Of a DNA stretch of 64,000 nucleotides, positions 1 through 57,198 are shown piece by piece. The stretch comes from Lampris incognitus. Its lineage: Eukaryota; Chordata; Actinopteri; Lampriformes; Lampridae. Positions within the stretch are counted from its first letter, which is position 1, and each line of letters opens with the position of its first letter. Location: the NCBI RefSeq assembly GCF_029633865.1, contig NC_079223.1, positions 39,231,706 to 39,295,705 on the forward strand, written 5' to 3'. A program made the position numbers and the translations under genes. The notes below the pieces were generated by a model. That model was not told the DNA's origin, searched no databases, and was given only the letters and a program-made list of their open reading frames with translations.

Positions 1-1
1 C

Positions 2-496
2 AAACCTGTTGAGGTTTTTGGAGAGCCAGAGTCAGCTGCTGTCCTACCACACAAATCCTGGGTGCCTCAGCAGACAAAGGGACCAGCAGACTCAGGAAAA
101 CAGCTGGACCCAGAACAGCAGCAGGAGCCCCAGGTCCCCAGGCCATCCCAGCTTGATGTTCAGTCCACTACCTCCGGCTCTAACCTCTTGATTGTCCAGA
201 AGCCTAGCTCAGCAGTCTCAGGAGGCTCTCAGAGGAGCTTCTGTTCTCAGATGGAGGGCAGCCTGGGCCCCTCGCCCGCTGACAGCAACGGTAGCCGAGT
301 GGTGTCTCCCTTTGCCAAGATAAAGAGCTCCATGGTGCAGGTTGCCAGCCTCACCCAGGCAGGACTCACCCAAGGCATCAACTTTGCTGTGGCAAAGGTA
401 CAGAAGAGTCCAGAGCCAGAGGGTGTTAATGAGTCCCAGGAGAGCGAACTGAGGGCAATGTTTACACAGTGCCAGACCCGGATCATTCAGATCTAG
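2..496 (+). CDS. inpp5f: INPP5F (SAC2) C-terminal tail, last coding exon, 5' truncated
   Basis: An open frame runs from base 2 to a TAG at 494-496 (164 residues). Its end, with AGLTQGINFAVAKVQKSPEP and then FTQCQTRIIQI, matches my memory of the C-terminus of vertebrate INPP5F/SAC2, a phosphoinositide phosphatase of endocytic membranes. The SAC catalytic domain and hSac2 domain lie upstream of the window; only the Ser/Gln-rich, probably disordered tail and the conserved last ~60 residues are visible. No splice acceptor is needed within the window, so this is the 3' part of a large terminal exon. The next gene, mcmbp, is on the opposite strand with its 3' end facing this one, the order expected from human 10q26. 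Identity rests on the terminal motif and the neighbours. Confidence 0.86.
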   Translation, partial: KPVEVFGEPESAAVLPHKSWVPQQTKGPADSGKQLDPEQQQEPQVPRPSQLDVQSTTSGSNLLIVQKPSSAVSGGSQRSFCSQMEGSLGPSPADSNGSRVVSPFAKIKSSMVQVASLTQAGLTQGINFAVAKVQKSPEPEGVNESQESELRAMFTQCQTRIIQI

Positions 497-3400
497 CATT
501 TTACTTGTAGACTGTTGCTGGATTTTGTAGTTGTACATGTAGAAACCTCCAATATGATAGCAGTAGCATAAGCTTGCACAAAGGGCCACTTCTCAAAGAA
601 CACTGCTCTTAAATTTCCTCCTTGGTTGAGCTAACCAATGTTTTTGATGACTCATGTACAAAAAGTACATTACCAAGGTCAACATGACGATGACTGCTTA
701 CATGCACACAACAATGCTACTTCTTGCCTGACTCTGAGGATACTTGGATAAAGGTCTGGACATATCTCCATTTCCATGCAATTTTGGGTGCCCTAGAAGT
801 TGAGGGTACGACAGTTACTGTGTACTGCAAGTCATCAGTCAAGTGTCAGATAACTCTTCATAACATCACAAATGTTGAAATTAACAGACGCAGTTAGAGT
901 TATAGTGTATACACATTTAAAAGAACATCAGAAAATGCTGCAAATGTTTCAATTCATATTGAACATTTTATGGGTTCAGTATGATTACTCTATTATGAGT
1001 AAATGAAGACACACAATTGGAGAAATAATTCCAGATTGACACATAAAAGGTGGTCATGAAGCGTCATTTCAACCCTTGTATTCGGAGAATGTCAGACATA
1101 TACGATTGGAGAATTAGTGTGCATGTAAACACATCACCGTCCTTAGCTTGTGTAACTCTTTTTTTCCAGTTGATTTCCTGCTATGGTTGCATGTGAGGCC
1201 AATTGTTAAAATCAGGTAAACCAGGCAGGTAAATTACAACTGCATGTTGAAAGTCCAACTGTAAATCTTTCATGTACTGTATGTGATTCCTGATGTGCTG
1301 GTCACCTATTGGCATTGATGCAGGCCCCATTATAGCTGCAGTTCTGAACACTGGTAATTGAACCTGACCAAATTTCTTGTGATCTCCAAAGGAAAGTTCT
1401 TTGTTAAATATTACCCTTAATATAGCCATCGGAAAACTAACAACTGACATGGTTAGGCCTATGTAATATCAGTGTTGTCAAGTGTAACCTATAGGAAATA
1501 TACCAATATATAAATTAATGATCACGTAAGTGTATACAGGTTGATATGTACAGTGAGTATTGTATGTATATCTGTTCCTTGAATAGAACCTTCCTATTTA
1601 CTAATACAAACACATATATACAATTATTTATGGCGGGTTATACAGGGGGTTTATCTCCATACATTTTGGCTTTTGTATTGAGGCTGGAGTAGTAACTTAA
1701 GATGTCTGTTGAGGTATGAGCATTTTATTTTGAAAAGGCTCCCCATTACGATTCCAAACTGCTGATAACCAGAAGGTACTGGTTAGAGATGTTTTTGATA
1801 GGTATGTGAATTGAATTTGTTATTATGCTATTGGTTGTAGTAATTACTTCTGAGGGTAGGCCTGATCCAAGCCCTCGGTCGGAGGACATTGACTTTGCAT
1901 GTTTGACAAAGACTTGAGAGCAGCATATAGGTATATGCAATTGGCGTCACCCAAACATTAGAAACACTGTTTGGCGTTTTATGCACTCCGTTAAATGAAA
2001 GCATACTTGCCTTAACAGGAAAATTGAAGTGGGGTTGTGTATATCAGGTATTCATGGCGAAATCTACCTTTTTTAACTCGTTTCCATTTCACTTAAATCT
2101 TACATTTGGGTGTACTGTATACAGTATTGGATCATGTTCAGGGTGTTTATGTCCGTTTCCTTTTATCTTGGGATATTTCGTCCATTGGTACAGCCATTCC
2201 ACATTGTGCAGGGAATGCCCTGAAAATGAGCATCCTTGAGACAAAGACTATTAGTTGTGTCTATATAGTATGTGTGGATTTGTGTATCAAGAGCCTCCCT
2301 GCTGCTGCTGGTATTTGTGTTCTTCAAATCCCGGAAAGATAGTATGTGCAAGTTGGCTGTCAAGGTTTGTTTATCATATACTTCCTTTTTTTTTTTTCTC
2401 TTAACTTCGATCAAGTGAAGCAATGCTTCACGTGTAAGGCTGTAATGCTTTCACTGGTATCCTACACAGGACCCGGTCACTGTACCCCGGTAGAAATTAA
2501 TATGAGCAGGTAGTTTAAGACACTCGAGTCTAGTGTTGTGAATATTGTCTGATTAAACTGTTGTCTGCTCGTAAGTCAGAATATCCCGAGATAAACGCTC
2601 TAGTCAACTTTTTTTGCGCTTTCATCTTGCTCATTCGCAGTTATACATGCAAACTGACCAGTCATGGTGCATGAGACGAGAGCGTCTCCTGTTTTGTGGG
2701 AGCAGCATGGTATTGTGGTTGGCTCATCGGTTAATGAACCTACTGATTAACGTTTGATGCTGCCAAAGCTTTAAGATGGCTGTATTGCAGTAGGAATGTA
2801 AGGCTGCGGTGCAAATAGTACGTTTTTATCTTCTGGATAACTCAATACAGAAATGTGGAGTAGTTCTCAAACACATGAAATGAGTTTTTCCTAAATCTGT
2901 ATTGAATTAAAAGGATCAAGTGTTTTAATTGACTTTCCTGCAAGAGAAGACCCCCCCATTGCTAGATATCGTTTTGTTGATATGCAAAAGCTGGTATAGT
3001 TTAACTTGACCCGACATTTGATAGGTGAAGATCTCTTATCCTTTATTTTTTTCTAACACCAAGTGCTTTTGAAACCATCTCTTTATTTGCTGTCTGTGGT
3101 TGACCATCCCCATAAGGATCCTTCCCATAGATAATCTACCATGACATTTGTGTTATCATGAGGTCGGAGCATATGATTGCACTGCACTTAAGCACATTTC
3201 CCGCATTAGCGCCATGTTGTCTGAATGTCTGTGGTTGTAGTTCACTTCTTACAATAACTGAGTTTTTTTTTTCATGGCGTATTCAGATTTTATTGTATAT
3301 TAAAATATCCTATTTATTCTTATCATTTTTCGGTGTGTTACTTCAGAACAGTGTGCGCTGTACACTTTGGTCCAGGAAGATATTCCATGGGAATAAAAGC

Positions 3401-9220: not shown

Positions 9221-12105
9221 TATATAGATATATATACATATGTATATATATTTCAGGAACATCTGAGGTCTCTGTCCAGAAGCATGTGGTCCTAGGAACA
9301 GCTAAGATACAGCACAGAACCCTCAAACTCCCAGGCCTCTGGTAGAGGAACCGAGCTTGAGGAAGACATATACCACCTGAAAAAGGGTGAAAATAGGGTG
9401 GGCAATCTTATCCAGAAAGGGCCAGTGTGGGTGAAGATTTTTGTTCCAACCAAGCAGTTACCCACCTGATCCCACTAATCAACCAGCAGAGCAGGGACAG
9501 GCAACATGGTCCAGAAAGGTCCGGTGTGGGTGCAGGTCTTTGTTCCAACCAAGGAGTTACACACCTGAGTCTACAAATCAAGGTCTTTAGCAAAGACTAT
9601 TGGTTGACTAATAGAATCAGGTGTGTAACTGCTTGGTTGGAACAAAGACCTGCACCCACACCGGACCTTTCTGGACCATGTTGCCTATCCCTGCACTAGA
9701 GTCTTTGCTGAGGAACCTGATTGGGAAACACAGGTGTGTAATCGCTTGGTTGGAACAAAAACCTTCACCCACACTGGCCCTTTCTGGATAAGATTGCCCA
9801 CCCCGAGATATTCTCTACTTTGCAAACAGTTCAGACCAGGATGCGTTTCCCTCTGCTTCTGCGGTGGTACTTCCATGTCGTCATCTTCCTCATAACTGCG
9901 TTTCTGTCTGCTTGGGACATAGGAGGTGGAGGGCATCACTCTTGCTTGGCCAGAGCAGGCATAGCTGTGTGACAGAATTATGGAAAACTATGGACCAATT
10001 TACCAGGCATCCTACTTAAGTCTTTCCATGAGTATGGTACAAAAGTAATGCTAAATAAATCCACATTCAGACTTTAATTGGCAAAGGGACATATCCATCG
10101 CCAGTCAATCGCCATGTATAGCTTTTATTAAAGTTCACAATTTTGACCAGAGAAGGATATTTCTTTGACCCAGGGGCTTTCACCAGGGATAGGAACACAG
10201 TAGAATGTCTGTCTCTCTGAGGTTACTGTGTTACTGAAATTGAACTCCACCTGGAGATGAAAAGTGCGATACATGATGGCATGTCAACACAGTTACAAAC
10301 AATGCTGGTAAAATTAAGAGTTTGTGGGATGCCTTAATGGTTTCTAAACTTACCCCAGATTCTGTGACGTCCTTGTATTTCCCGCACCTCTGAATCTGGG
10401 GAGTGAAACAAGGATTGTTAATTGAGTCCCAGAAATTACGACGTGAATTTGCTTTCAGTAGACACCGGAGGCCTGTAAAAAAGCTCCTCATGTGTCATTT
10501 TCAATGGAAAAGCTGCACTTTTCATGCTGATGCAGGGATCTGACCTGTTTTCAGAGCACGGTGCCTAAAGTTGAAAGAATTTCAACTTCAGCTGAAGTGC
10601 ACAGCTCATTAATGTCACTGCTAGCTGCACCAAGCAATAAGGATGAAGAAAGGGATGGACCAGAAAGGAAACAAAAAGCTAGATCTACTATGTCAAAGCC
10701 TAGCAGAAAAACAAAAACAAGTGAAAATTAATCAGTGTTTTATTCTACATTTTTACATGCAAATTATCACGATATTAAAGAAGAGGAATCAGGTGGAATA
10801 TTTCTTTTGAAGCGCAACATCTCATTACATAGCCACTACCAATGATCCACTTGCGGGGGTCTCACAGGGGGCTGAACTCCGAGTTGTTAAGTTTTACGTC
10901 GTACTTGGTATTATTTTATATCAGGGCATCCCCGCGACCCTGACAGCAGGATAAGTGGGTTGGATAATGGATTGGAATGATATTATTATTATGCTGGATA
11001 CAAGACTTTATCAAGCAATCTACCGCAAACGAGAGAATAAGGAAATGCTTACTTTGGCACTGGTTGACGGATCAACAGTCTCATACACTCCCATGTAAAA
11101 CTCGGGATCAAACATGTCTTGGATCAAACAACGGAATTTGACCAGGCTGTTGGGCTTCAGGTAGTGCAGGGGAACATCGTTTAACGAGGGAACCTATGTG
11201 GATAACATATGTTCAAAATGATGGCGAATCAAGAAGGCAGCCGGCTAAACGGCGCGGTTATATACTGAAAAAGAAAACTGAAACATACACTTGACGGGTA
11301 ACAGCAACAAGTATTTCTCTTTCCACTGAGGAGGATTCTGCAACATCTCTAAACTACATTACCGATGCGCGAGCCTCCTTGTCTCTCAGTTGCTCTTTGA
11401 AGAATCCCGTTACTTCAGCCTCCCATCCAGATTTCGGATTGCCTTGGGACGAAGCTGTAATATCAAGAAGCGTGTAAATGGTCTGACGTGTTGTGAAGAC
11501 ACAGGCGACACAGTTTAACCATCATAAAGGTGGGCAACATGAACAGGGTCACGACCCCCCCCCCAGTCCATATCCCTGGGGTCCTGGGATGAGCAAATCC
11601 TGGGATATCACGCCTTCATATGGGGAATTTGTGCCAAGAAGCGTGTAAATGGTCTGACGTGTTGTGAAGATACAGGTGACACAGTTTAACCATCATAAAG
11701 GTGGCCGACATCAACAAGCAAAAATGACAACACTTAACCATTCATCAGGTAAGCACTTGGGTACAACTTTCTAATGACTGCACCAGTTCTCGGGTCAGAC
11801 GAGCCAGAATATGGGCACTGCTGGCTGAATGGTACGCTCTGAACACTGGGCGTGTGTATGAAGGTGCAAGTGGGGCAAAGCTTACGATAGCGATTGTCGG
11901 CAGTTCAGCTGGAGGACAGAAACGTTTAAAACCACGGGTTACGGGTTTACAGCTATGACAGTACGGCGGAGCGTGGCAGCTAGCGACCTAGCTAAAGCGC
12001 TAGGTTAACGTAAACGCATTAATCTAGCCGCCGTGCATGCGTCTTACCAAACATCCCTTCAACGACGCCCAAAGGGTTGTTAATCCAGTCACGCGTGGCA
12101 GGCAT
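3920..12105 (-). CDS. mcmbp: Minichromosome maintenance complex-binding protein, 16 coding exons
   Basis: MCMBP binds MCM3-7 in place of MCM2; it promotes MCM unloading and assembly and supports sister-chromatid cohesion in the nucleus. Exons on the minus strand: 12105-12048 ([16 protein letters not shown]), 11454-11363, 11193-11053, 10395-10354, 10250-10161, 9966-9837, 8885-8740, 7526-7429, 7332-7160, 7012-6889, 6795-6678, 6290-6125, 5901-5768, 5007-4843, 4476-4388, 4046-3920 (stop TGA). They join in frame to 630 residues; human is about 642. Diagnostic stretches are [85 protein letters not shown] and KCVNGNEP at the end. All introns look GT-AG except the fifth, which has U12 AT-AC ends (separate entry). 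The region around residues 190-230 is less conserved. Start chosen because it matches the family N-terminus. Divergent from sec23ip. Confidence 0.96.
5047..5212. repeat. ~90-bp tandem duplication in mcmbp intron 13
   Basis: Two head-to-tail copies of an AT-rich unit, about 5047-5130 and 5137-5212. They share GATTTTATTTGTTTAGACC and GCATGTGCATATCCA with few differences. They lie just upstream (in gene direction) of the exon at 5007-4843 and are followed by an A-rich stretch to about 5270. Probably a recent local duplication with no coding role. Confidence 0.8.
9121..9252. repeat. Compound low-complexity tract (poly-C, TC, TA, CA, TA)
   Basis: A run of about 14 C is followed by (TC)n, (TA)n, (CA)n and further TATA-rich sequence in mcmbp intron 6. 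It is simple-sequence DNA; reading frames across it are not genes. Confidence 0.9.
9396..9803. mobile_element. Nested foldback (hAT-like MITE) insertions
   Basis: The outer pair of inverted ends reads GGTGGGCAATCTTATCCAGA on the left and its complement at about 9785-9803 on the right. Inside, about 9494-9692, a second pair starts CAGGGACAGGCAACATGGTC and ends with the complement GACCATGTTGCC...CCCTG. The two layers also resemble each other (AAAGGnCCnGTGTGGGTG, TTGTTCCAACCAAG). CAG...CTG-like ends and a possible imperfect 8-bp flanking repeat around the inner unit (CAGCAGAG / CACTAGAG) suggest hAT-type MITEs, one inserted in another. No transposase is encoded; all open frames here are shadows. 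The outer end is only ~33 bases past the donor of the mcmbp exon at 9966-9837. Confidence 0.75.
9967..10160 (-). other. mcmbp: U12-type AT-AC intron (mcmbp intron 5)
   Basis: Read on the minus strand, exon 5 ends ...GTCAAAGAA and is followed by ATATCCTTC, nearly the whole U12 5' splice consensus ATATCCTTT. The intron is 194 bases. Its end reads TTTTCCATAATTCTGTCACAC and the next exon starts AGCTATGCC. TTTTCCATAA resembles the U12 branch site TTTTCCTTAAC and sits 12-21 bases from the 3' end, the usual spacing. Joining at AT...AC gives ...[14 protein letters not shown]..., which keeps frame with the MCMBP family (human WVKEAYVNANQARV). No GT-AG pairing of these exons that I tried preserves the frame. 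Confidence 0.85.
10915..10980 (+). repeat. 3' tail fragment of a fish SINE (family B)
   Basis: GCATCCCCGCGACCCTGA, then GCAGGATAAGTGGGTTGGAT and ATGGATTGGA, match the 3' end of the complete copy at 20224-20598. Only about 60 bases remain, in mcmbp intron 3. Confidence 0.75.
11462..11712. repeat. Direct repeat pair of ~75 bp in mcmbp intron 1
   Basis: The unit beginning AAGAAGCGTGTAAATGGTC and including ACAGTTTAACCATCATAAAG occurs at about 11463-11538 and again at about 11636-11711 with a few substitutions. About 95 bases of unrelated sequence lie between. The first copy adjoins the 3' splice site of exon 2 on the minus strand, but the acceptor itself is not duplicated. Confidence 0.8.
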
Positions 12106-12758
12106 CGTTAAGCAATACCTCTGGGGGGGGGGACTCAAAAGAAAAACAAAATCCAAAGAGAAACGACGGGAAAATACAGTTTTGTTGAGATCTTGTGGAC
12201 TGCTGCTCCGTACTTCCTCCAACACGGGAGAGGAGACCCACTGCTGTAGCGGCGGGAAAATTGCGTCACTGGGCACAGGAAAGTAGTTCGCTTGTTTTCG
12301 ATGCCAGAAGTCGCCTCGGATATCACACTGACGAGAACGCGCTTATTTTGATCCGTCGTTCCAGATGGGGGAACTGCTTGAAAACTTTTTTTTGTTTTTT
12401 TTTTGTTTGTTTTTAACGTGAGGCGTACGTCAACTCGGAAAAGTAACCTTTTATTTAAACGTTTAAAGACGCGAGTAAATCGGACGGTACACGCGCTCTT
12501 CCAAGCCTCTAGGTGGCAGTATTGGAAAACAAGCTCTCGTTTCCCGCGACCTTCAACGGGCCTTTAAAAAAAATCGACTGCGCCCTGTAGCTGATCTACA
12601 AACAATCGGTTCGGTTGATTTCAGGAATTGTATCCGTATGTACGCTTACAAATCAGTGAAAATCGAGTATCGCGGAAAGCACTTTGACGTCCGGGTGTGG
12701 AGTAGTAGGCTGTTGACTGCCTGTCCCGGTGTTGGCTACGTGTAATTTTTGAGGGAAG
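12106..12758. promoter_or_regulatory. Divergent promoter region, mcmbp (-) / sec23ip (+)
   Basis: The two start codons are 653 bases apart and point away from each other, the same head-to-head arrangement I recall in human. The interval is richer in CG dinucleotides than the flanking introns and shows no TATA box at an obvious position. Two exact E2F-type motifs are present: GGCGGGAAA at 12251-12259 and TTTCCCGC at 12540-12547. E2F control would suit mcmbp, a replication-linked gene. The 5'UTRs of both genes must lie at the edges, but transcription starts cannot be fixed from sequence alone. Confidence 0.6.
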
Positions 12759-15700
12759 ATGGCTGATAGAAAGAATAATAATGCGTCCAGCTCTAGTGCA
12801 AATTTACTGTTCAGCGCGGCTCCGGAGTTTAACTTCAATCTGCCCTTCATACCCGTCAGCCAGGCCACTGGGCCGGCGGTGCTATCAGGAGGTGAGATGA
12901 GACGATACTGGGGGAAATGTCAAAACTTTGGCGTTAGACGTTGACATCATCACTAGCCGGATCGTTAGCTTGTTACCCTGTCAGCACCAGCCCTTATTAT
13001 CAGCTGTTAATCATTGGCTTTATGCTGAAACGCTGTCACTGTCCCGCCCGCAAGTTTAGCCTCATCGTCAGTGATGGAGTTCGGTTTTGAAGGGATTTCA
13101 CTATCAGAAAACATATACACCTATACATCTCTTATATACTGCGATCAAGAGGCGTGAAATGAGTTTTTCTTGGTGTCAGTGTTTCCGTCGAATAACAAAC
13201 ATTGTACAACGTACACGCAACTTAGTCGCAAACACACGGCTCACATGTACATGGTACGAGGACCTTACACGTTTCTTTAACTCTTCATACCGTGCTCGAC
13301 CGAAGAGAAAAGTGTTAATCAGTCACATCAGTGTTTCATGAGACCTACAAAATACGTGACTGACGAATTATGAATGAAAAAGTGAGTTGCCCATTTGTGA
13401 CGGTCGGTGACAGTGTTCAAATTAAATTGATGAATTGTTCCCTATTGTAATGTCCCTTAGATGATTCAACTGACGTTGGAGAAGAAGACAGCTTTCTGGG
13501 TCAGACCTCTGGGACTGTTCCAGCCCCCTCTACCTTCAACTACTTCTCCAGTCCTGTGACCAGTAGTGACCCATTTGCATCCATAGGTCACCAGCCATGC
13601 CCACCACCAGCACATTCAGTCGCCCCGGCAGTAATGGGTCCAACCTCTGTCCCGAGCAGTGTCAGCGTGGCCCCCCCGCCCCCTGGCCCACAAACGAACC
13701 CTGCTCCTGCCTTCGGAGGTGCAATGTACCAGAGCCCAGTGGGACGACACACTCCTCCCCCCAGCACAGTTCCCCCGCCCCCTTCCCAGACACCCCAGTC
13801 AAGTCATAATCCATACCGTCACACCCCTCTCAGCAGCAAGGCCAGCCCTTATATTCCAGCTCCAGAGCTCCAGCCACCAACCCACTCAGCACTGCAGAAC
13901 CCCTACTCTCTTGGCTCTCCAACACAAACATTCCATACAGCAGGACCCACATTCACAAAGGTAGATTGATACATATTAATCGTTCATCTTTCTTAGATTA
14001 TCGTAATATGCATTATTAGCCCAGTGAGTCAGTGTTTCCCGGATACTTTTTTCAGGTGGGGTGGTATTCTCCCCAAAGCCGCAGGTGCTATGGCGAGTGA
14101 CTTGGCTATTACCATTTTCATTTTTTTTCCATTTCCCTTGGTGGGTTGGTAGTTCACCTAAGCACCTACCCCACAAAGACAATGGTAGTTGTAACACTGG
14201 GGGGTACTATCGCTCTTGCACCCCTTGGCAGTGGCTGCTTTTTATATTGGTGATGAAGGAATTAAATCTTATTCCATTGTTCCAGTGCTGTCATTGTCTT
14301 CAAATTGCATAAGACTATTAGCAAATGAAGGATAAATAATTAGAATTAGACTGTACTGCCGACGAGATTATGGCGTATAGATTATAACTAATTGATGACT
14401 TAATTGATTATGACTAATGACTATTGCCAACTGTTCTCTTCTCTCACATGTCTTTTCTCTCTCTCTGAATGATGTCTTCTCCTTTCTCTTTTTCTGTGTG
14501 AATGGTGTCATGTGAGTCTCCCTTGTGTGCATGTGTACACAAGGGAGATTCCTCCCAGGTCTCCTCCCAGGTTTCTGTGGTGATGGTGGTCGCCACTTGG
14601 ACATTGCCTGGCATTCCCCTCATCACATTTTCTTTTTATATATCTTATAAATTCATATTTTTTTTACATGATGATGCTGGTCACGTGGCTTGGGTCCTGG
14701 ACTGTTCCAGTGGCGTCAGGACACTGCTTGACATCCTGCACATCATATTCTTCATAAATTTTATAAGTCCATTATAATTCTGTTTATCCTCTGTCAATGT
14801 TGTATTGTGTAAATTGTGAAAACACAACATCTATTGCACGTTGTCTATCTTGGGAGAGAGATCCCTCCTCTGTTGCTCTCCCTGAGGTTTCTTCCTATTT
14901 TTTCTCCCTGTTAAAGGTTTTTTTAGGGAGTTGTTCCTTATCTGATGCGAGGGTCTAAGGACAGGATGTTATGTTGCTGTTAAGCCCACTGAGGCAAATT
15001 TGTAATTTGTGATATTGGGCTATACAAATAAAATTGACTTGACTCAAAGATGTATCTATGTGCCCCCCCCCATTGAAGCCCCCTCCCACACAGATGCAGG
15101 CACCTCTGCCTCCTGCCTCTACTGCTGGAGCATTAGTCCCCGCCAATCCCATGATGCCATACAACTACAATGTTTATGAGCCTGTTCAGCCACATTGGTT
15201 TTTCTGCAAGCAAGTGGAATCAAAAAGTGTCTGGCTACCTTTCAGCATCATTGACTCCATTCAGCTAGAGGAGACATACAACTCAGGTAAAAGGAGCAGC
15301 ATGTTGTGATGCTCTGTTGGATGCGTGGACTAAAGTGCCTCATCGTGGGTTGTGTGTGAATACATTTTCAGCATATTTTGCCTAATCAGGGCAGTGCTAG
15401 TCCCATGTTTTTCCTAGTTGGGCTGCGAATTACCATTAATTGTCCATGCTGTGCTTAAATGACAAAACAAGGATTATTTCATGTCGACATTACAACACAT
15501 CAGAAATGGAATGGATGTTTTGAAACAGCCAGCCCCTTGTAAATTCTCTATACCATTTGCTTTTTTTTTTTTTAGTTCAGCCAGACCCAGAGAATGTGAT
15601 GGTGCGCACTGATGGAGGGCGCTATGATGTGCAGCTGTACGACCGCATGCGAACCGCAGTCTACTGGGAGGAGGAGCCTACAGAAGTCCGGCGCTGCACC

Positions 15701-18700
15701 TGGTTCTACAAAGGAGACACGGATAGCAGATTCATTCCTTACTCAGAGGACTTCAGTGACAAGCTAGAGGTTTGTTCCATCGCTGCCAGTGACCAGAAAC
15801 AGATGTTGGCTGATGTTTTTGGGCCTTGGACTGTTCAGAGCAGTGTACAGCCGAGCAGTGCGCTGTGTTTAGCTTTTGTCCTACAGTAGAGAAGTCAGTG
15901 TAGTTGTGGTAGAAATACTTTATCTGTAAAGTTGAGGCATGTAGCAGAAATATGATATTTATTTTTATTACATAATGTGTGTAGTTGTTCTTGCACTGTG
16001 ATGTGACATGTTGGAAGGAAATTGCTATACCTTAGCATCACTGTTTCCTGTTATCATCCAACTCCTATGATAATTTCTCAAAATATTGCTGCAATGTACA
16101 TTTACATAAGCGTTGTATTATAAATATGCTGCTGGAATCAACTCATTTACTTCTACTAATTATGGTTCATATACCCACCTTAATTAGCTCTGTAAAGGAT
16201 ATGCATGTCTCCACTTTTAGGCAGAATATAAGAAAGCAGTGTCTACCAACCAGTGGCACCGCAGGCTGGAGTTCCCATCTGGGGAGACCATTGTAATGCA
16301 TAACCCAAAGGTAAACCCTTGTTGGATAAAAATGTTGTTTTGCGTTGGTCTTGTGGCATTTTAGCCCCAGCAACTGAACTTTATTATTTGTACAGAATCA
16401 GTTCTGTTTTAGCACATGGTGAGTCTTGTTCTCTCTGTTTCAGGTGATAGTCCAGTTCCAGCCCTCAGCCATGCCAGATGAGTGGGGGACAACTCAGGAC
16501 GGACAGACCAGACCCAGGGTGGTCAAGAGAGGCATTGATGATGACCATGACGAAGTTCCTGATGGTACCTGAACTCCTCCTTTTCCAAACATATGCTCAT
16601 GAAGGCATACATAAAGTTCCAATAAGCTTAGTCTGTTATACTCCTAATATGAAGTTTACAGACCATTAAATATGGTAAGAGCCAATAAATTTCACCTATT
16701 TCAGGAGAGCTGTCTAAGGTGGATCATCTAGTTTTCATGGTACATGGAATCGGTCCCGTCTGTGATCTGAGGTTTCGAAGCATGGTGGAATGTGGTGGGT
16801 ACCGTAGTCATGCATTCCTCTTTTTTAAATTTCTGTCTCTCTTTGATAATAATGGTTTGAGAGATGACACGATAACACATTTACTGGCATGAACTTGTAT
16901 TGCTTTGTCATTTGCTGGTAATGTCTGATTTCAATGGTTACGGCACCTCATAAGATCTGTACAAAACTCTGCTTTTTTTTCAGTGGACGACTTCCGTAAT
17001 GTATCGCTGAAGTTGCTAAAGAGCCACTTTAAGAAACATCAGGATGAGAATGCCATCAGCAGGGTGGAATTCCTCCCTGTCCAGTGGCACACAGCTCTAC
17101 ATGGAGATGCCACAGGGGTCGACAGGTGAGGAGGCCCGGGCAGTGTTTCAAGCAGCCATTGCAGTTTAAAAACTATATGCCAGGAGTAAACACAAGGAAT
17201 ATCTTGAGATCTCTGGTAAAACAATTGAATATCAAGGAATTTTAGAAATGGGTTACTTCATGTATATGGAAAATGAGCCTACTTGGGGGTTGAAGAACTC
17301 CTTGGAAATTCAGTAATGCATTTTGTTTATGCCCAAATTATTGTATGCAAGCTTTCCGTTGCAATAACTGACATGCATTCAAATGTTGATAATGTTCATT
17401 TTCACCCTCATATACTCTTGATTTTTTTTCCTTTTCTTTGTATAGGAGGATAAAGAAGATCACCTTGCCCAGCACTGGTCGTCTGCGTCACTTTACCAAT
17501 GAGACCTTGCTAGATGTGTTGTTCTACAACAGTCCCACTTACTGTCAGACCATTATGAACGCAGTTGCCCTGGAGATTAACAGACTTTATGCCCTGTTCA
17601 TGAAGAGGAACCCAGACTATAAAGGAGACATATCAGTGGCCGGGCACAGTTTAGGTAATAAGCCACAGTGAAGTTATTTGCACACACCTGGATTACAATC
17701 TGATTTGTGGTAACTAAAGGACTCCTGGTTTCACACAGATCTGGTCTCATATCTTTACACTTGCAGGTTCTTTGATTCTTTTTGATCTGCTGTCAAATCA
17801 GAAGACTAGCTCCCTTGCACAGGGAGTTCCAATCGTGCAAACTGCCAATGGAGGCGTCCAGGGAGACAATAAACAGGTAATACACCATAAGCCACCATGC
17901 TTATCAACTGAAAATACCGGAAAAGAAACACTGAGAAAGTGGTATAATCGTTCCTGTGGAGCGTGCGCGTGTGTGAGATCTGACCTAGAACAGTAATTGA
18001 TTATAGCATTTTATAGTCACTTTTCGTTCTGTGTTGTACTAACACAAAACACAGATGAACTCAAACCAATGATCTAAGGAAAGGCTGTTTGGACATCAAC
18101 TTTGGGAATATTGCCTAACCCCCTGCTCATCCAATATGGTGCCTCCACCCACCACACAGGTAGACAATGCAGTCACCCCACCTGTTGTGGACGAAGAGCC
18201 AAAAGGGGAAGGGGAGGAGTTTGAAGATCTTTCTGCTATGCTGGAGCACCTGGGCCTTATTGAGTATAAGAGTACCTTTGATGAAGAGAAGATTGACATT
18301 GAGTCCTTTGTAAGAATAATAAAAAAAACACCTGTTTTTTTTTTTGGTTTTTTTTTTAAGATGTGATTTGCAGACCAACACCTAACAGGATCATCCTTGT
18401 GATATATGATGTCCAATTTTTCTCTCTTCCTCACATTAGCTCATGTGCACAATTGAGGACCTGAAAGAAATGGAAATTCCGCTGGGGCCAAGGAAAAAGA
18501 TTGCCAAATTCGTTAAAGAAAGAGTGAATAAGCAGGTGGGTGCAATTCCCCACTGTATATTCAAGGCCCATAGTCCTGGCAAGCCGATGGTACCAATTCA
18601 CTTGTCTTCTTTGCCCTTGCTCCCAGGCTTCACAGCAGGTAGATCAAGATAAGAAAGTGGAGGTCAAGGAGGTGGTACCCACACAAGCATCTGAACCGCT

Positions 18701-21700
18701 CCCCAATCCTACCACCAAGAAGCTTCCTGTCGGCAAAACGGTTTCCTCCATCCACGTCGACTACAATTGCTTTGATGTTGGCACTGGACAGGTAAAGCCC
18801 ATCTGACGCAGGGGTTACGAGGGATTATTTGCCGAAGTGGCTTACAAATGTGTATCCTCTATATGATTAATCAAGAAAAATCATTTCATGGGCAAGTATG
18901 CACATCTTGACAATGGCTATTTACTTGCTAACAAAAGGAATATCAGATTTTGTATTGCAATGTAATATCTTAATTTTCAGTTTTTGTGTTACATCTAAGA
19001 AGGTAAGGATTATTTATTAAATTAATTAGACTATGTAATGTTTTTCAGGTGTCGGTGATCTACCATGGCCTGGACTTTGAGCCGGTGAATTTCTTTGCAC
19101 TGGGTTCTCCAATTGGCATGTTCCTTACAGTCCGTGGGGTGGAGAAGATTGAGGAGACTTATCAGTTGCCTACCTGCAAGGGGTTCTTCAACATTTACCA
19201 CCCGGTATACTATTTACTTAACATTTACCATCCGGTATACTATTTACTTAACATGTACCCTGAGGGAATTGACCAGGATGGCAATACTACAGATTAAGCT
19301 TCAGTTTCTCGAGAAAGTGTTCTCTCCTGCAACTTGGTACACAGTTTTTGTGTGTGCAAAGCATTTGATCTAATTCTTGGAAATTTATGAGAAGAAATTT
19401 GATACGAGCTAGATTTTTTTATTGTTGTTTTGGGGGATGCAGACATTCTTATAAGTTGTGTATCATATATCAAATTAATGAAAATTTCCCTAAGGCGATT
19501 CACTAATTAAAGATGGGGATGAAAACCTTATACCTAAGGTGGTTGCTTTACATTTACTGACATTCTTGTATACAGAATTCTCATTTAACTTTGAATGTTT
19601 TGTTCACATCTTAAAAAATATTGAATGAATGCATTTTTAAAATATTTCACAACGCCACAAAATGTTGAAAATGTCAGTGACAGGATAACATGGTTAGAAA
19701 GACCATCTTGTAGTTAGAAAGTGACAGATTAGCTCCCTGCAACAGCCATCTGTTATGTTCCAAGTTTTCCTGAGCAAAATGGTAATTCCCAACCTGCAGA
19801 CTCACATCAAATGTGATTAAAGGCGCTTTTGTGAGTCACTGCGTGGAATGCAGGATCTGATGACTAGTTTGACCTGTCGTTTCCAGCTGGATCCTGTTGC
19901 GTACAGAATTGAGCCCATGATAATGCCAGACCTGGATTTGAAGCCTGTTCTGATCCCACATCACAAAGGGAGAAAGAGGCTGCATCTTGGTATGGATCTC
20001 CAGATTTAGAGTTTTACTCATTGTTTTTCTCAAATCTCTGCTTATCCAAGGACTGCATTTTGGTGTGTATTCTATGAGACAGGAACTTCAGGGGGGGAAA
20101 AAAGGAAATGGGATTTTTTAATATCGATTTTTTTATTTATTTTTTTAAACAACAGGAATTGGTTCCATATGCTAATTGATAAGCCAAAGTGCAGTGCTGT
20201 TATCAGTGTTACATTTTTAGATGTGGGCGGCACGGTGGCGCAGTGGTTAACGCTGTTGTCTCACAGCAAGAAGGTCCTGGGTTCGAGCCCCGGGGTAGTC
20301 CACCCTTGGGGGTCGTCCCGGGTTGTCCTCTGTGTGGAGTTTGCATGTTCTCCCCGTGTCTGCGTGGGTTTCGTCCGGGGACTCCAGTTTTTTTCCACAG
20401 TCCAAAGACATGTAGGTCAGGTGAATCGGCCATACCAAATTGTCCTTAGGTATGAATGTGTGTGTGTTGGCCCTGTGATGGCCTGGCAGCCTGTCCAGGG
20501 TGTCTCCCCACCTGCCACCCAATGATTGCTGGAATAGGTTCCAGCATCCCCGCGACCCTGAGAGCAGGATAAGCAGTTCAGATAATGGATGGATGGATTT
20601 TTAGATGTAGGCTCTAGTGTCAGTAAGGAGTGAAAAGACTGCTTCTGATTTCAAGAAGTTTTTAATCATAAGGAGTGTAATAATGGATTCCCCTTCATTA
20701 CAGAGTTGAAAGAGAGTCTCTCCAGGATGGGCTCCGACCTGAAGCACGGTTTCATCAGCTCCTTAAAGACTGCTTGGCAGACACTCAATGAGTTTGCACG
20801 AGCTCACACCTCCTCCGCCCAGCTCCAGGCCGAGCTTGCCATTGTGGCCAGTCAGATCAAGGAGGAGGAGGAGAAGCATGTACATGGTGAGTTTGACTTA
20901 AAGAATGAGGGTCCGTGGTGGTGTAGCGGTCTAAGCATCGGCTTTGTGTCGATGCAGTTGCCCACTGGGGACTGGGGTTCGTGCCCCAGTCTCGTCAGAT
21001 CCGACTATGGCCGGACTCGATGAAGCAGCAATCATTGGCAATGCTGTCTTCGGGAGGGGGGGCGGAGGCGGCTTGTGTTTGTCACGTGAATGCGTCTCTG
21101 TGTGTGTCGGAAAAAGCAGTGGTTCGGCCTGGAGTCGCCTTGTCACGAAAGTGGGGAGGTGTCTCCTTCGAGACTGCCGGCCGGAGAGATGCAGTTGGCG
21201 AACGCATGCAGTACGAGGGTGGGTGTTTGAATTAAAATAGGGATCGACTGGCAACTAAATTGGGAGAAAAGAGGGAAAAATCAGAAATAAATTTAGAAAA
21301 AGAATGTTGTCTGCACACCATAAAATAGCTTTTTTTTTTATTATTATATACTGCCATTATATGTTTTGCCGTTAACTTGATTGGAAGTAAGCGCTCAAGT
21401 GAAAAACTGTTTCTGTACAGTTTGTTTGACCACATCCATTGGTTTGTCACAGAGCACAAGATTTCAGAAAGTCCTGAGCCACAAAGAGAGGAGGAGCCGC
21501 AGGTGAAGATAGGGATGCTGAATGAGGGGAAGCGCATCGACTATGTCCTACAAGAGAAGCCCATTGAGAGTTTCAACGAGTACCTTTTTGCACTTCAGAG
21601 TCATCTGTGCTACTGGTACCAAAGTCTTACAGATTTCAGCATTGAAAAAATGAGCTGTGGCAAAGATTTGCAGTTTTTGGCAAAAATGAATATCTTCTGA

Positions 21701-22158
21701 AACTGAGTAATTACAGTGTCTAACAGAAATCACAATTCACCATTTAGGTAACACAGTTAGCTCAAAGCACTTTTTAACAGTAACTACAGCTTTGTGTATT
21801 GATTCACATTTTTTGGGAAATGTACAGAAAAATCTGTTCTGCAATTGTTTAGAGACTCCACAACAAAGTCAAACACATTTTACCTGAAATGGGAGGAATG
21901 TCTTTTACAAGTGACAAGAAAATACTGTAGAGAAAAATATTGGTTTTCAGAAATGTAATAATTTAAATTCGGCGTTTTGCTGTATATAGCTCGACTTGTT
22001 TTGAACTCTTGGTGAGAGACAGGTACTGTTTGACTATATCCTATTTATATTTAATTTCTCTTTTTTTTTTTTTTAGGGAATCTGAAGACACAGCCCTGCT
22101 TATTCTCAAAGAGATCTACAACACCATGGGAATCCATCCTGAACAGCTGGTTCATTAA
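12759..22158 (+). CDS. sec23ip: SEC23-interacting protein (p125-type DDHD protein), 18 coding exons
   Basis: SEC23IP binds Sec23/Sec31 at ER exit sites, has a lipase-like DDHD fold and recognises phosphoinositides. Exons: 12759-12891, 13461-13960, 15079 (or 15094)-15286, 15576-15769, 16221-16310, 16444-16564, 16705-16794, 16984-17125, 17446-17654, 17767-17876, 18160-18309, 18440-18535, 18627-18791, 19049-19204, 19887-19989, 20704-20886, 21468-21615, 22077-22158 (TAA). Phases fit throughout and give 959 residues; human is about 1000. In order: a Pro/Ser/Gln-rich N-terminus, a WWE-type region ([16 protein letters not shown]), the lipase-like core ([18 protein letters not shown] nucleophile motif split by the exon 9/10 junction), a SAM domain ([13 protein letters not shown]...[14 protein letters not shown]), and the C-terminal DDHD part ([33 protein letters not shown]). 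Start chosen by match to the family N-terminus. The 3' end converges on csgalnact2. Confidence 0.96.
14027..14420. repeat. Probable decayed transposon remnant, sec23ip intron 2
   Basis: The stretch begins CAGTGTTTCCCGGATAC, which looks like a hAT-type terminus. I could not find the matching inverted end, so class and right boundary are uncertain. No coding sequence is seen. Confidence 0.3.
14500..15045 (+). repeat. Interspersed fish repeat ending next to sec23ip exon 3
   Basis: The 3' end GATATTGGGCTATACAAATA and AAATTGACTTGACTC is a tail I recognise from many teleost introns. Upstream lies a hairpin TCTCCCTTGTGT/ACACAAGGGAGA (14517-14528 and 14537-14548). The element ends about 34 bases before the first possible acceptor of exon 3. 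I am not sure of its class (SINE- or LINE-derived). Confidence 0.6.
19188..19254 (+). repeat. sec23ip: 30-bp tandem repeat spanning the 5' splice site of sec23ip exon 14
   Basis: The exon end ...AACATTTACCACCCG|GTATAC is followed by 30 bases (19205-19234) that recreate the same exon end and donor (...AACATTTACCATCCG|GTATAC). A third, more diverged unit follows. Both donors are in the same frame. The first gives the family sequence NIYHP|LDPVAYR; the second would insert [10 protein letters not shown]. The downstream acceptor is at 19886/19887. Confidence 0.85.
20224..20598 (+). repeat. tRNA-derived SINE (family B), near full length, sec23ip intron 15
   Basis: The head GGCACGGTGGCGCAGTGGTT (A-box-like) and GGGTTCGAGCCCC (B box) are followed by a core including GTTTGCATGTTCTCCCCGTG and GTCCAAAGACATGTAGGTC. 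The tail is GCATCCCCGCGACCCTGA and ends ATGGATGGATGG. The core and tail resemble DANA/V-SINE-type fish SINEs, though I cannot assign a formal name. It lies in the sense direction of the host gene. Confidence 0.8.
20912..21300 (+). repeat. tRNA-derived SINE (family C), sec23ip intron 16
   Basis: The head GTGGTGTAGCGGTCTAAGC and the B-box-like GGGGTTCGTGCCCC are followed by a body with CTGTGTGTGTCGGAAAAAG and CACGAAAGTGGGGAGGTG, ending in an A-rich stretch after ACTAAATTGGGAGAAAAG. It is distinct in sequence from families A and B. Sense to sec23ip. Confidence 0.7.
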
Positions 22159-23638
22159 TATATTCAGGTATCTTGGATAAAAACAGCCCTTCCTGAAAGG
22201 AGCCGTTAGGTTTATGTCATGTCTGGATTTTAATAGATGCTTTTTTTCCCCTCCCTTTTATTTTCTATTCTTGTAGTTTACTGTACTGTCTAAGAATGAA
22301 TACAATTGTATTATTCCGTTTGTCTTAAATTAAGAAAAAAAAATCAAGTTTGAGGATTCAAAGACGCATGACTAGTTTGAATTTACATTTTATGGGGTAA
22401 GTTAAAGAGCTAGTCATGTTGGCTTAGAGTTTACTGAAATGTATACCAAGAGACATTGCATAACAGCAGTAAATGCAACCTGCAAATTTTATTTCATGGC
22501 CAAAATTGTCATAAAATAAACAATTTCTTGACACAAGTCATTTCTTTCTGAAATGTGGTGTTACTGCCTTGGAGATCTGAAAAGGAAGACATGTCATCAT
22601 TCTTTACAGGGTGCATATAGAAGGTTTGCAAGGCCATCTACAAAAAGCTGTCATACTTGCAAAAATGTTGATTAAAAAGTGATTACAGCACTGGATGTTA
22701 AATGTCAGCTTAACCTATGTTTGAGAAAGAAAAATAAAGCACGTCTTTGCTTACTGTATTTAATATTTAAGACAGCTGTTCTCATATACATTGCGCCTCT
22801 GTAAGGTTTGAAACGGCATCTTTGCAGCCAAGCCATTTAGGTTTGACATGCTTTCTCATGAAGAGATGGAATAAAATTGAGGTCCACAGCTGTGAACACA
22901 CCTTTAATAATCATCTCCAGTGGACTTACAATGACTGATGTAATCTTTTTCAACAATTCAAATGACTTAAGACCAATGGGCACGTTACGAAATGTATGGG
23001 GGGGAAAAATCTATTAGAAAACTATTTACATGAGTGGCTGTAACATTCATCTTGACTCTAGTCTTGGGAATCATAGTGCTGTGAGTGTTTCTCACTGGGC
23101 ATAAATAAAGATTTTTTTATGATTGTTACTACTGGTCCATAGAACTCAATGCATTGCATGCTTTAAGCAGGTTCTTGCTCTGGGTTTGAGCAATTTAATG
23201 GACATCCTCTGCTAAATAGATGACCACCTGAACTGTCACCTTCCAAGCAAAGACGAACATTAACCGATTGTGCCTTTCAAACATAGACTGCTAACAAAAA
23301 GGTCCCTTTTTACCACATAACCAGTTTTTAACCAATGTATAAATACATGACAATATGGCTCAACAAACAACCAGTAACAAAAAAAACCCCATCAATTTTT
23401 AATTGTTTTGATCTCGACTCAGACAAGACGTTTTTTTGTGAGAATGGAAGGATCCTTCTTGAGGGATCAAGATATAGTTGTTGTTTTTTTTTTCATTTCT
23501 GAACCATTAGAAAAACCCAACTTTATTTTTTTTGTACAATTTGCATTAAGCAAGTATCTCTACAATCGGTTACCTCTCTGTGAAAGTTAATGCTATTGCT
23601 TTCAGAGAGAAAAAAAAAATCACATACTTAAAGCCCCC

Positions 23639-24294: not shown

Positions 24295-27139
24295 TTAGTC
24301 CTCTGATTTGCCCTGGGTCTTGAAGGCCTGCTTGCGGAGGTGCGCCTCGATCTCCTCGCGGAACACAAGCATCCCCAGGTGGGAGTGGGAGGCCTCATTC
24401 ATGGCTTTGGACTGGATGCACATGCGATACTGCTCTGGGGTCAGTTCGTCCGCACACTGCTTCTCGTGCCATAGATGGAATAGACCTGACACCGGTGTCC
24501 GGATTACAATCAAGTCGCTCCGAAGATATTTTCTGTATAAGTGGACGTCCTCCACACCCCAGCCTTTGACTTCCAGGTCAAAGCCTCCTGGAGAGACAAA
24601 AAGTCAAAGGCGGGTAAACGCAATGTTACTTTTTTTCTTTTTTTTTTAATAAAGCTATGTGTGACCAATGATGTATGTGGTATGTAAGACCTTGGGTAGT
24701 AAATATGTAATGATGTAAGACCTTGGGTAGTCTTATGTGAGTATATAAATCCATTATTAAAATAATAGCTGCTTACCAATATTTAGGAAATCTGAGCGAT
24801 ACTGACATGTCATTCCAAAGCCGAAATCTCTCCAGAATCCAGCGTCCTTCTTGTGAATCTGTTTAAAAGAAAGACAAGTGAATGAGATGTAAAAGCTCTC
24901 ATTTGAAAAGCAATCCAATCAATGGATTGACCACAAACAAATTAAAGTATCAATCTTGAAGATTCTGGTTGGGTTCTTTTTTTAGCATATGCTTTCTGGA
25001 AGTCATTTTGAAACTGCTAACCAGTTTGTCCACCACAATGCTGGGACACAGCATTTGTTCCGCCTATCCTCTGGTGGACCAACCACTGCTGGGTGACCCT
25101 TGGGATTTTTAGCGGGACTGTTTCTACAGATACACTTTTGTATTTCTCCATTTTATTGCAAATGCATGGGCTTTCATCAGGGACCAATAGGCTGATTCAT
25201 CGTGTCATCTTGTTTGGCAAAAAGACCGACCACAAATTGGTTAGGGAAGAATACACAAAAGAAACATACCACAAAAAAAAAGACATCTCAACAACTAAGA
25301 TCATGATGTTCCACACTCCTTACCAACTGAAGCTCAATGGGTGGAGCCAGCTCCAAATTTCCATAGACTATTGCGGGATTATAGAGACTGAAAACCACTG
25401 GATAGAAGACTTTCTTGTCTACGAAACACAAAAGAGCCTTTCAGTACTTTAAGCTACATTGATATGACATTAAATAAAAACTCAAAGGTGGTGGGAGAGC
25501 TACAAGTTGTAAAATCCAAGGAACCTACTCGGAGAAGAGTGAAGACGGCAGGTATTGAGGAACTCCAGCGTGAAGTGGATGTCTACATCACAAAAGAACA
25601 TCAAGACATCACCACTTTTCCAGGCATGGGCGCCGATATCCAGACCCCGTCCCCTGGAAAATTCTTCATCCACTGGGATGAGTGTGTAATTGGAGAAACT
25701 CTCCTCCCTGAGGAATAAGAAGGCCATTTCATTTGAAAATGCCCACTAACACAATAGCTCGAAATAAGGCAGCTAACAGTGTGAAGGTCAAATGGCCATT
25801 TTTAAGCAAAGGAACATACCTGGACATTTTTTCCAAAGAGGACTTCACATCTTGTAAACCCTCTTGGCCGAAGTAAACCACTGTCAGATGTACTCTCCTG
25901 TCCTGCTGTACGCACACCTCTCTAAAAAAACAAAACACTGCATACTTTTTAATTTGGTCAAACACTCTTTTTGTTCAAAAATCTCAAGAAATGCAAATTG
26001 CCACAAATAATGGAAGTGGGCAAGCTCTTGTTTTACAATATAAATTTGAAGAGAAAGTCCACCGAGAAAACAATCTTAGGTAGTGAATGCCTGCAAAGCA
26101 CCACAAACAACCTCAAATTAAACTACAAGAAGATGTATTATTATTTCTCACCTGAAGTTGTGTAAAAACTGTGTGAAAGTTTCTGCCCTGCCTGCCAGCG
26201 GCACAATGATGTTGATTATGATTGCTGATGTTTCTATGGACGTGCTCCTCACTTTCATTAAAGGACCAAAAGGACGGAAAAGAGTGACATGACGGAAGCT
26301 GGTGGAATCGTCTTTTGCGAAGAAGAGCTCATAAAGTGTACCTTTGTCCCGCTCTGTCCGGTGCAGCCCTGCCAGTAAGAGACATGAAAAAAGCAGCAAC
26401 TTCAAGTGATTTTTCAAGAGACCAGACTGCATCAGTGTATCTGAATCCTATAAATGCTGGTCAACACTTGGGTGGTGTAGTGCTTACCCTCAGTGAAGTG
26501 GCCCTCTGTATAGGTTTGTCTCTGCATTGGCATGTCGTCTTCTACCCCGTCTTCCTCATCAGGGTTGTTGATGATGTCCAGCGCTGCCTCGATGACCTCC
26601 ACCAGCTCGTCCCTGCGGTCTTTACGGACAGGCTTCTCCTCTGGGTGCCGCGTCAGCCCCATCTCTAGCTGGTAAACCTTGGATGAGGTGAAACTCTCGA
26701 AGGGGATCAATGCATATTCGCTGGGCAGGCGCGCCCCCGTGCTCACCTCAGCCTTGTCGATCTGGGAGTGGAGATATTCCAGCAGATCCCCGGGCTCGTG
26801 GTCTTTGGTCTCGGCAAGGCCCTGCACCCCTGGCAGCTCCTTCTTGTCCTGCAGGAGCTTCAGCTTCTCATTCATCTCCTGCAGCTCCTGCTTGAGCTGA
26901 GCAATCTGCCGCTTGAGGCTGGTGGCACGGCTGAGGTGGCGCTCCTCCTGCTCCTGCAACAGAGCCTGGTAATACTCTTTACCATACAACTCTCCGCTCA
27001 GACCGGGCAGCACCAGGCTAACGTCAGCTGGAGGGGTGCACTCCAGCAGGTAGGCGAACAGCAGCAGCACCAGCAGCAGGAAGAGGCCCAGGAACAGCCA
27101 GCGTACCCGGCCCTGCAGTGACAACCCTCGCCTGGGCAT
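24295..27139 (-). CDS. csgalnact2: Chondroitin sulfate N-acetylgalactosaminyltransferase 2
   Basis: This Golgi type II membrane enzyme transfers GalNAc from UDP-GalNAc to start and extend chondroitin sulfate on the proteoglycan linker. Exons (-): 27139-26488, 26368-26152, 25921-25820, 25707-25529, 25418-25324, 24858-24777, 24587-24295 (TAA). They join in frame to 539 residues; human is about 542. The product has a short cytosolic [11 protein letters not shown], one membrane span (about residues 13-32), a coiled-coil stem ([20 protein letters not shown]), [13 protein letters not shown], the metal-binding DVD in FFCDVDI, and the [14 protein letters not shown] region that holds the acidic residues of beta4GalT-like domains. 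MPRRGL and the stem fit CSGALNACT2 better than CSGALNACT1, and ret next door agrees. The frame is open further upstream, but MPRRGL matches the family start. Confidence 0.96.
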
Positions 27140-27474
27140 CACGCTCGCATACAAGTTATGGGCAGCAAGCCTGCATTCCCTTCTTCTCTCCGATCTCCAC
27201 TGAGACACACTCACTCACATCATCTATCATACATATCTGGACATCATCACAGCTTGGCACAGTTTGGAAGGTCCTATACAGTTCTTATATTAGACCACAT
27301 TCCTTGAAATGACAAAACCCACAGCGGGGATGTGTGGTGGTCAAAAACTTTGCCCTTTCATGTCATTGCACTGATTGCAGATAGCTCTTTTTATGTTGAT
27401 TCTTGACTGCTATGCATCTTCTACATTGCATGAATACATTTAAGCAATGGTTGATGTCTCCAATAGATATTCAC
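27140..27474 (-). other. csgalnact2: csgalnact2 5'UTR part of first coding exon
   Basis: On the minus strand a strong acceptor (CTTTCTTTTTTTAG|GTGAATAT) ends at 27475, so the first coding exon probably starts at 27474 and carries about 335 bases of 5'UTR before the ATG at 27139. This implies at least one non-coding exon upstream. Confidence 0.55.
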
Positions 27475-28641
27475 CTAAAAAAAGAAAGAAAAGAAAACAC
27501 AAGTCAACGAAGACCGACAATCCTCTGACTTTTATATTTGTTATTTAGAGGACTTTTAAGCCTCAGATGAAACCTTGTCTTTAGCTTTCAGGTTATCTAC
27601 TATGGTACAGGTGTGATCAGTTCATAGGCAGTCATCGCACACAGCAGTTTGCAGTTAACTGGGTGGGTCCCAGTCTGTCAATGGTACTTGAGCCATTATA
27701 TAACAGCAGAACCAGCCAGCCAACGCCTGCAGTCAGCCAAACAGACAACAATTATTTCATTCAGTCAGAAACCGGGATTTTTTTTTTTACACAAATGGGA
27801 GGTGACCCATGTGTTTGAGCTCCATTAACATCTTACATGTCAAGACCATGAGGGAGAAAAATAAATGGTAAAAAACTGAGGTTCTCATTCATCACACTCA
27901 CACTAGTTATAACCGAATAGTTTTTGATAGCTTACGTCGGCTAGCAACGAAACAACAGCTCGTCCACTGGAGGAAATTGGAGGACGCGCTCTTGCTTCAT
28001 CAAGTTTTGACAAATTTACAAGATTTTCATTTTCCGTTGAGGGATTCCCACTACAAAATAAAAGCGTATAACCCGAGGAACCCGCAACGTGCGCTACAGG
28101 CAGTCAGGCGTTTTACCCGTCAAAACGACAATTCGTTATTCTGGCCTTGACGTCGAAATAAGTACTAAATTAACAATTTAAAAGTTTATATTTCCGCTCA
28201 TCATAGTTTCATTTTTCGTATGATGAAGGCGTACCATTAGAAAAATCAAAACTGCAAATAGCAAAACCCACTTTCTCACATGTATCACGAATGAACAATT
28301 CTCCAATTAGTATAGTAGCAATTTTTTCCTTGTGATATTCATCACATTGGCAGCGCAATAATATCCTGTACACATTATACAGATCCTTACATGCGGTACA
28401 TCCTGAAAGTTTCTCTTTTGCAAAAACACACTACGTTAAAAGAAACGTCCAATACACCAGTTTTAGGTCGCATTAAGTTTTAGTGCGCGATGGTGCCTTT
28501 ATTTTGAAAAATACTCGAACCAGAAGTCTTCGTGATTTTGCTGCTAACTTTACAGGAATGTTGGCACCGCTTTACCGTTTTGCTACTTTTTCCCCACAGC
28601 TTGCGTTAACAATTTCTTACATATTTCAAGTAATTACTTAC

Positions 28642-28760
28642 CTAAATCAAGTCGTCCCCATGTCCCTTAGATACATAGCGGGAAAGCACTCACACGAAAC
28701 AAACAACGGTGGCTAACCAGAGTAACGACATGCCACGGAGCAAAGAGAGAGGTGGGTACA
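28642..28760 (-). promoter_or_regulatory. csgalnact2: Candidate non-coding first exon and promoter of csgalnact2
   Basis: A strong donor on the minus strand (GATTTAG|GTAAGTAAT) ends at 28642. Just upstream is CG-containing sequence and an ETS-like CTTCCGG near 28767. With the acceptor at 27475 this would make an untranslated first exon and a ~1.2-kb intron. This is inferred from splice motifs alone; the exon's 5' edge is a guess. Confidence 0.4.
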
Positions 28761-29267
28761 TCGACTACTTCCGGTGAAAAAGTGACCAATGGTTGTTTTG
28801 TTACTCACTAACGTCATCAAGCACGCTTGATTCTGTGTTAGGGTTATCGAGTACGCCAATTCAACGAATCTGTAAAACCAAAATAGACTATTTCTGAAAG
28901 TACAGTCCAGTTGACGAGGAGGCATTCGAGCTCATTGGCTGTGCAGAAAGTCACTCCTGTTTGATCTGTTGGTGGATTGGATGTAAGTGACCGGTAAATG
29001 TCACAAAAGCGACTGCACAATGGCAACGAAGTCACTTCCACGAGTACGTTTTATTTGCAGTGACTGGAGAAGGCTGTGGCATTTTGTAGAATAGTTATCC
29101 TTGCAACGCTCATTTATGTAAACACACGGATACTGTAAACCTATGCACCTTTTGCAACAAAGAGTCTGAGTCCGTAGTGCATCTTTATTTAATGCTTGCA
29201 TAGATACTTCAGAATTTTGAGATGTCTTAGAGTCGGTTCAACTTACAAAAGAGAAATATTCTCATGT

Positions 29268-29400
29268 ATTTTGGCAATAACAACAAACGCCCCAGGAGGA
29301 GCTGGAGGGCGTTGCTGGGGAAAGGGACGTTTGGAGTGACCTACTTAGCTCCCTGCCACCGAGAGATGAGATGACAGATTTTGGCAATAACAACAAACGC
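29268..29400 (+). mobile_element. Truncated LINE 3' end between 23-bp direct repeats
   Basis: ATTTTGGCAATAACAACAAACGC (23 bp) occurs perfectly at 29268-29290 and 29378-29400. Between them are 87 bases (GGGCGTTGCTGGGGAAAGGG, GACGTTTGGAGTGACCTAC, CTGCCACCGAGAGATGAGAT) like the 3' end of common fish non-LTR retrotransposons. This looks like a severely 5'-truncated insertion with intact target-site duplication. Confidence 0.75.
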
Positions 29401-29405
29401 ATGGA

Positions 29406-29407
<2 letters not shown>

Positions 29408-29456
<49 letters not shown>
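29408..29456. repeat. (AAT)n microsatellite
   Basis: About 16 AAT units, followed by AACTTATATAGCGCTTTTCT, a short sequence common at the edge of fish repeats. The minus-strand Leu-rich frame across it is an artefact. Confidence 0.9.
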
Positions 29457-29458
<2 letters not shown>

Positions 29459-29925
29459 TAAACTTATATAGCGCTTTTCTATTATGTTGATGCAATGATT
29501 TTAATGGTCAAGTTCTAAGTTCTTTTTACACAAATGTAGAGTACTTAATGCTGCTCCCAAGTACAATATGTATTTGTTGAAGTTTGAAAACTTTATGAAG
29601 TCAGTTAAATGGATAAAGAACAAGAAAAGCATACCCTTCGTGATACACTTTAGTTTGTCATCTCATATATTGTGATCTCTGTAATGCATGTTTTTTTTCT
29701 CTGTATGTTATGTGCTAGTCTGTTGTATTTATTTTTGATATATTAAAAAATATATATACAAACGCAAATGTGTATGCTAGTCTCAGTTAGCATGTGATAT
29801 CACATCTTACCGCAGAAACAAACATACATTGAAATATGAGTAAAAACTTTTACACGGGTTGCTACATTTTTCATTCACAAACATTTTTTTGTTTTGTAGC
29901 GTTATGCTGTAATTTTTTTCAATAG

Positions 29926-29965
29926 AAAATTATCTGTGCTCCCACATCGGTGCACAGATAATTTT
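29926..29965. repeat. Perfect 14-bp inverted repeat beside the Tc1 terminus
   Basis: AAAATTATCTGTGC (29926-29939) and GCACAGATAATTTT (29952-29965) are perfect complements around a 12-base loop. The right arm ends exactly where the Tc1 terminal repeat GGGTGACAAATGAAAGG begins. Confidence 0.85.
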
Positions 29966-30513: not shown

Positions 30514-30599
30514 TCTGTATGTAAATGTGTGTGGAGGTGATCTTACATTTTGATATACAGGCTGTGGCAACACATCTTCTCAAGAAAGACAATAAAAAC

Positions 30600-30781
<182 letters not shown>

Positions 30782-32898: not shown

Positions 32899-57198
<24,300 letters not shown>

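Follow-up and report, generated by a model that had tools for sequence, protein, structure and literature searches.

Introduction

The product of mcmbp takes part in building the DNA replication helicase. In human cells, the assembly of MCM2-7 is supported by MCMBP; when the protein is depleted, licensing is reduced and the cells stop proliferating (PMC9018068). The gene has already been tied to minor splicing in humans: retention of U12-type introns of MCMBP was raised in two RNPC3 patients (PMC7612377). This was the only publication found to join MCMBP with U12-type or minor introns, a search for C10orf119 together with U12 returned none, and PMC5538549 mentions MCMBP and the minor spliceosome in unrelated passages.

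A-type minor introns are described as having the 5′ splice site ATATCCTT, a close branch site and an AC end (PMC2831892, PMC3584512); PMC2831892 writes the U12-type branch site as TCCTTAAC. Among the U12-type introns of three fishes, the AT-AC share is 22% for zebrafish, and Tetraodon and Takifugu have 12% each (PMC7367187, Table 2); phase 0 is under-represented in U12-type introns (PMC7367187). CENATAC gives selective support to A-type minor introns, and its depletion in HeLa cells affected 92% of them (PMC8280824, the main text of which contains 0 occurrences of MCMBP). One study found that minor introns undergoing retention were shorter than non-retained ones (PMC6717393). Here we describe intron 5 of mcmbp from Lampris incognitus, which very probably (about 96%, judged from its sequence) is an A-type (AT-AC) minor intron that would be removed by the U12-dependent spliceosome.

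Gene Model of mcmbp

The genome analysed comprises 1.48 Gb, and the window, a stretch of 64,000 nucleotides, corresponds to C16:39231706-39295705. The coding region of mcmbp was built exon by exon and can be read as 630 amino acids without a stop (Table 1). The modelled protein was matched by the Pfam profile MCM_bind with 779.3 bits over profile positions 1-577 of 577, so that this domain covers most of the protein, as expected for MCMBP. The 15 introns of the model are 93-1213 nt long. All except intron 5 start with GT and end with AG, which is partly a result of construction, since the exon borders were chosen by eye with GT-AG in mind.

The gene looks single-copy. In a genome-wide protein search, in which 16 candidates were scored, all 14 matches to mcmbp with E ≤ 0.001 map to the mcmbp locus, and therefore no processed copy that could serve as a fossil of splicing was seen in this search (E up to 0.001). 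A search for a solved MCMBP structure for comparing the junction across species returned nothing at E ≤ 0.001.

Table 1. Positions of mcmbp features in the window and of minor-spliceosomal snRNA loci in the genome.
Feature	Position	Strand	Evidence
mcmbp coding region, 16 exons, 630 aa	3920..12105	-	gene model, Pfam, genome protein search
mcmbp exon 5, 90 nt	10161..10250	-	gene model
mcmbp intron 5, putative U12-type AT-AC, 194 nt, phase 0	9967..10160	-	gene model, pattern scan
5′ splice site ATATCCTTC	10152..10160	-	gene model, intron comparison, motif count
branch-site-like TTCCATAAT, 7/9 to TTCCTTAAC	9977..9985	-	comparison among 15 introns
3′ terminal AC of intron 5	9967..9968	-	sequence, gene model
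mcmbp exon 6, 130 nt with chosen 3′ boundary	9837..9966	-	gene model
U6atac-like loci	C2:96694255, C2:37333566, C3:71062293, C12:30800169
U4atac loci, two, 93 bits each	C14:23614988, C27:10419327

Splice Signals of Intron 5

Exon 5 ends with ...GTC AAA GAA at 10161 and exon 6 opens with AGC TAT at 9966, giving the junctions GAA/ATATCCTTC...TTTTCCATAATTCTGTCACAC/AGC (slashes mark the exon borders). The preliminary description had placed an intron with AT-AC ends here, and our minus-strand model reproduces both borders exactly. Positions +1 to +8 read ATATCCTT and agree in 8/8 positions with the U12-type AT-AC 5′ splice site. For the core ATCCTT at +3 to +8, intron 5 showed 6/6 matches, while the other 14 mcmbp introns reached 0-3/6.

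A branch-like motif had been placed 12-21 bases from the 3′ end, and TTTTCCATAA is found at exactly this position. Within it, TTCCATAAT contains both adenosines of a U12-type branch site, and its agreement with the consensus TTCCTTAAC is the best among the 15 mcmbp introns (others ≤6/9). The second adenosine of the AA pair is at 9978 and is followed by 11 nt of intron, and counting from the first leaves 12; both distances agree with the roughly 11-13 nt that separate branch adenosine and 3′ splice site in U12-type introns. The intron terminates with ...TGTCACAC at 9967, and this end (...GTTTTCCATAATTCTGTCACAC) combines AC with, as judged by eye, the lack of a distinct polypyrimidine tract. Thus, intron 5 carries the DNA-level sequence features of a U12-type AT-AC intron, and this reading, already proposed before, is supported by them and by the four minor-spliceosomal snRNA genes described below. 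A tandem AC closes the intron (9967-9970, minus strand), and splicing at the first of the two would put the frame out by 2 bases.

RTATCCTTY occurs twice in the window versus 2.09 expected copies, and its presence alone is therefore no evidence. By our arithmetic its frequency is about 1.6e-5 per position, and luck at one of 15 exon ends amounts to about 2.5e-4. With up to one mismatch, RTATCCTTT has 17 sites per window strand, mcmbp being the sole gene modelled exon by exon. The combination of 5′ splice site, branch site and AC was found at this site only in the window, with one 5′ site and two nested AC ends. It appeared in 0 of 100 shuffles, a comparison that is partly circular, as the pattern was written around the intron 5 site.

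Alternative Splice Junctions

Joining exons 5 and 6 at the AT-AC borders had been proposed to restore the MCMBP frame, and the uninterrupted protein with its full-length MCM_bind match confirms this. It had further been stated that only this junction needs borders other than GT-AG. Intron 5 is indeed the sole exception in our hand-built model with its full frame, but "needs" is too strong. A count over 16920 donor/acceptor combinations around the junction gave 1649 that preserve the frame of exon 6 and contain no stop; these include 10 GT-AG, 2 GC-AG and 5 AT-AC joins, with the proposed one among the last. Reading frame as the sole proof of the junction was consequently rejected, since ten GT-AG joins in the vicinity are in frame as well.

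Removal by the major spliceosome through one of these GT-AG joins, for example with an intron start at 10138 (GTGAACTTT) and an exon start at 9944, would make ATATCCTTC coincidental. To compare the joins, fragments of 202-224 residues were scored against MCM_bind for nine of the 16 AT-AC, GT-AG and GC-AG rivals (seven GT-AG, one GC-AG and one AT-AC). The AT-AC join was best of the 10 with 245.5 bits, and the nine rivals reached 206.1-242.4 bits, the upper value belonging to one of the seven GT-AG joins. Homology thus backs the AT-AC junction modestly, because the best of the scored rivals trails by only 3.1 bits, and the case rests on the splice signals. The six GT sites that serve the frame-keeping GT-AG joins all lack a G at +5, and the rival AG sites are located within the coding stretch (for exon starts at 9944 and 9938) or, for 9987, come after AATTGGTCCATAG. 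Moreover, if a GT-AG splice were used, the U12-type signals assembled at this border would be there by chance. We therefore consider this explanation very unlikely. The human protein, which reads VKEAYVNANQARV in this region, aligns gap-free with the product of the AT-AC join.

AT-AC ends could also be processed by the major (U2-type) spliceosome. U2-type AT-AC introns do exist, and in sodium channel genes they are said to carry a G at +5 (PMC2831892). Intron 5 has a C at this position within ATATCCTT, and a U12-type branch site 11 nt from the intron end likewise speaks against U2-type handling, leaving this route a next to negligible probability.

Minor-Spliceosomal snRNAs

The genome of the fish encodes U6atac (131.3 bits), U12 (133 bits), U11 (117 bits) and U4atac (93.4 bits), all above the Rfam cut-off, so that the minor spliceosome is represented at the snRNA level; the same four RNAs gave no match in any of 14 control genomes. 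The U12 gene has the branch-pairing stretch GAGTAAGGAAAA and the U6atac gene has AAAGGAGAG. For pairing of the 5′ splice site with the fish's own U6atac, −5.1 kcal/mol was predicted for intron 5, versus −1.4 to +1.2 for the other 14 introns. Predicted pairing with U11 (−6.2) was computed for intron 5 alone and hence stands without a control. For U12 and the 3′ region, the value for intron 5 (−7.7) lies within the range of the other 14 introns (−3.9 to −9.2); this energy fails to separate the 15 introns, and its use as a classifier was rejected. The four U6atac-like loci had scores of 131, 121, 88 and 52 bits.

Based on the known biochemistry of minor splicing, U11 and then U6atac would pair with AUAUCCUU at the 5′ splice site, while U12 would pair with UUUUCCAUAA and leave one adenosine bulged as branch point. 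The AC closing 11 nt past the second adenosine would then serve as 3′ splice site.

Comparison to Known Minor Introns and Consequences for MCMBP

By its sequence, intron 5 is a real, conventional, textbook A-type minor intron, sharing 5′ splice site, close branch site and AC end with the described ones (PMC2831892, PMC3584512). It departs from the typical case by the branch site with 7/9 agreement and by the less favoured phase 0, a minor oddity, and is otherwise unremarkable. With 194 nt it is the 6th shortest of the 15 mcmbp introns, and the earlier remark that it is short does not hold, as this length is ordinary for the gene. It belongs to the same subtype as the CENATAC-dependent AT-AN introns (PMC8280824). 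The human MCMBP introns retained in patients are from the same gene family, and the passages on them (PMC7612377) give neither intron number nor end dinucleotides, so the likeness is at the gene level. U12-type introns in MCMBP are thus already known from humans, with a reservation regarding orthology of the individual intron in position and subtype. Our data add a fish case to a gene that is tied to minor splicing in people and leave the current view of splicing unchanged.

Translation into a retained intron 5 would end after 10 codons, and its 194 nt are not divisible by three (remainder 2); retention would therefore truncate MCMBP, and poor minor splicing should lower the amount of the protein. 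Minor splicing of this intron may in this way be linked to the control of proliferation. This regulatory idea, put forward in the preliminary description, appears reasonable in the light of the literature on MCMBP depletion, on CENATAC and on the length of retained minor introns, yet it is not new. We regard as unlikely a further reading, in which slow removal of the A-type intron limits the rate of fish mcmbp expression and the activity of the minor spliceosome (or CENATAC) thereby sets MCMBP supply and with it MCM2-7 assembly and replication licensing. The junction 10161/9966 provides a concrete handle on a possible MCMBP loss in fish minor-spliceosome mutants.

Neighbouring Sequences

The 3′ boundary of exon 6 is ambiguous (9818-9837, minus strand) and can be set as CCTG/GTCTGAAC or as CAAA/GTAGAG in identical phase, the latter being an alternative GT 5′ splice site 18 nt downstream. 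Intron 6 contains nested inverted repeats (9396-9804), with inner arms at 9488-9581/9604-9697 (93% complementary) and outer arms at 9396-9468/9731-9803 (95% complementary). This arrangement looks like a small inverted-repeat transposon within a related copy, and its outer edge is about 33 nt past exon 6 as modelled.

Neighbouring genes span 26432-46246 (minus strand), 12758-22200 (plus strand) and 1-497 (plus strand) of the window. On the minus strand these are a csgalnact2-like gene, with a CHGN match of 18.4 bits that is under the cut-off of 23, and ret, with RET_CLD1 at 109 bits and the start of the kinase domain. On the plus strand, a gene with a WWE domain is presumably sec23ip, and the gene end probably belongs to inpp5f. 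Further copies of ATATCCTT in the window are located at 16202 (minus strand) and 38939 (plus strand), and by position they run antisense to sec23ip (plus) and ret (minus), respectively.
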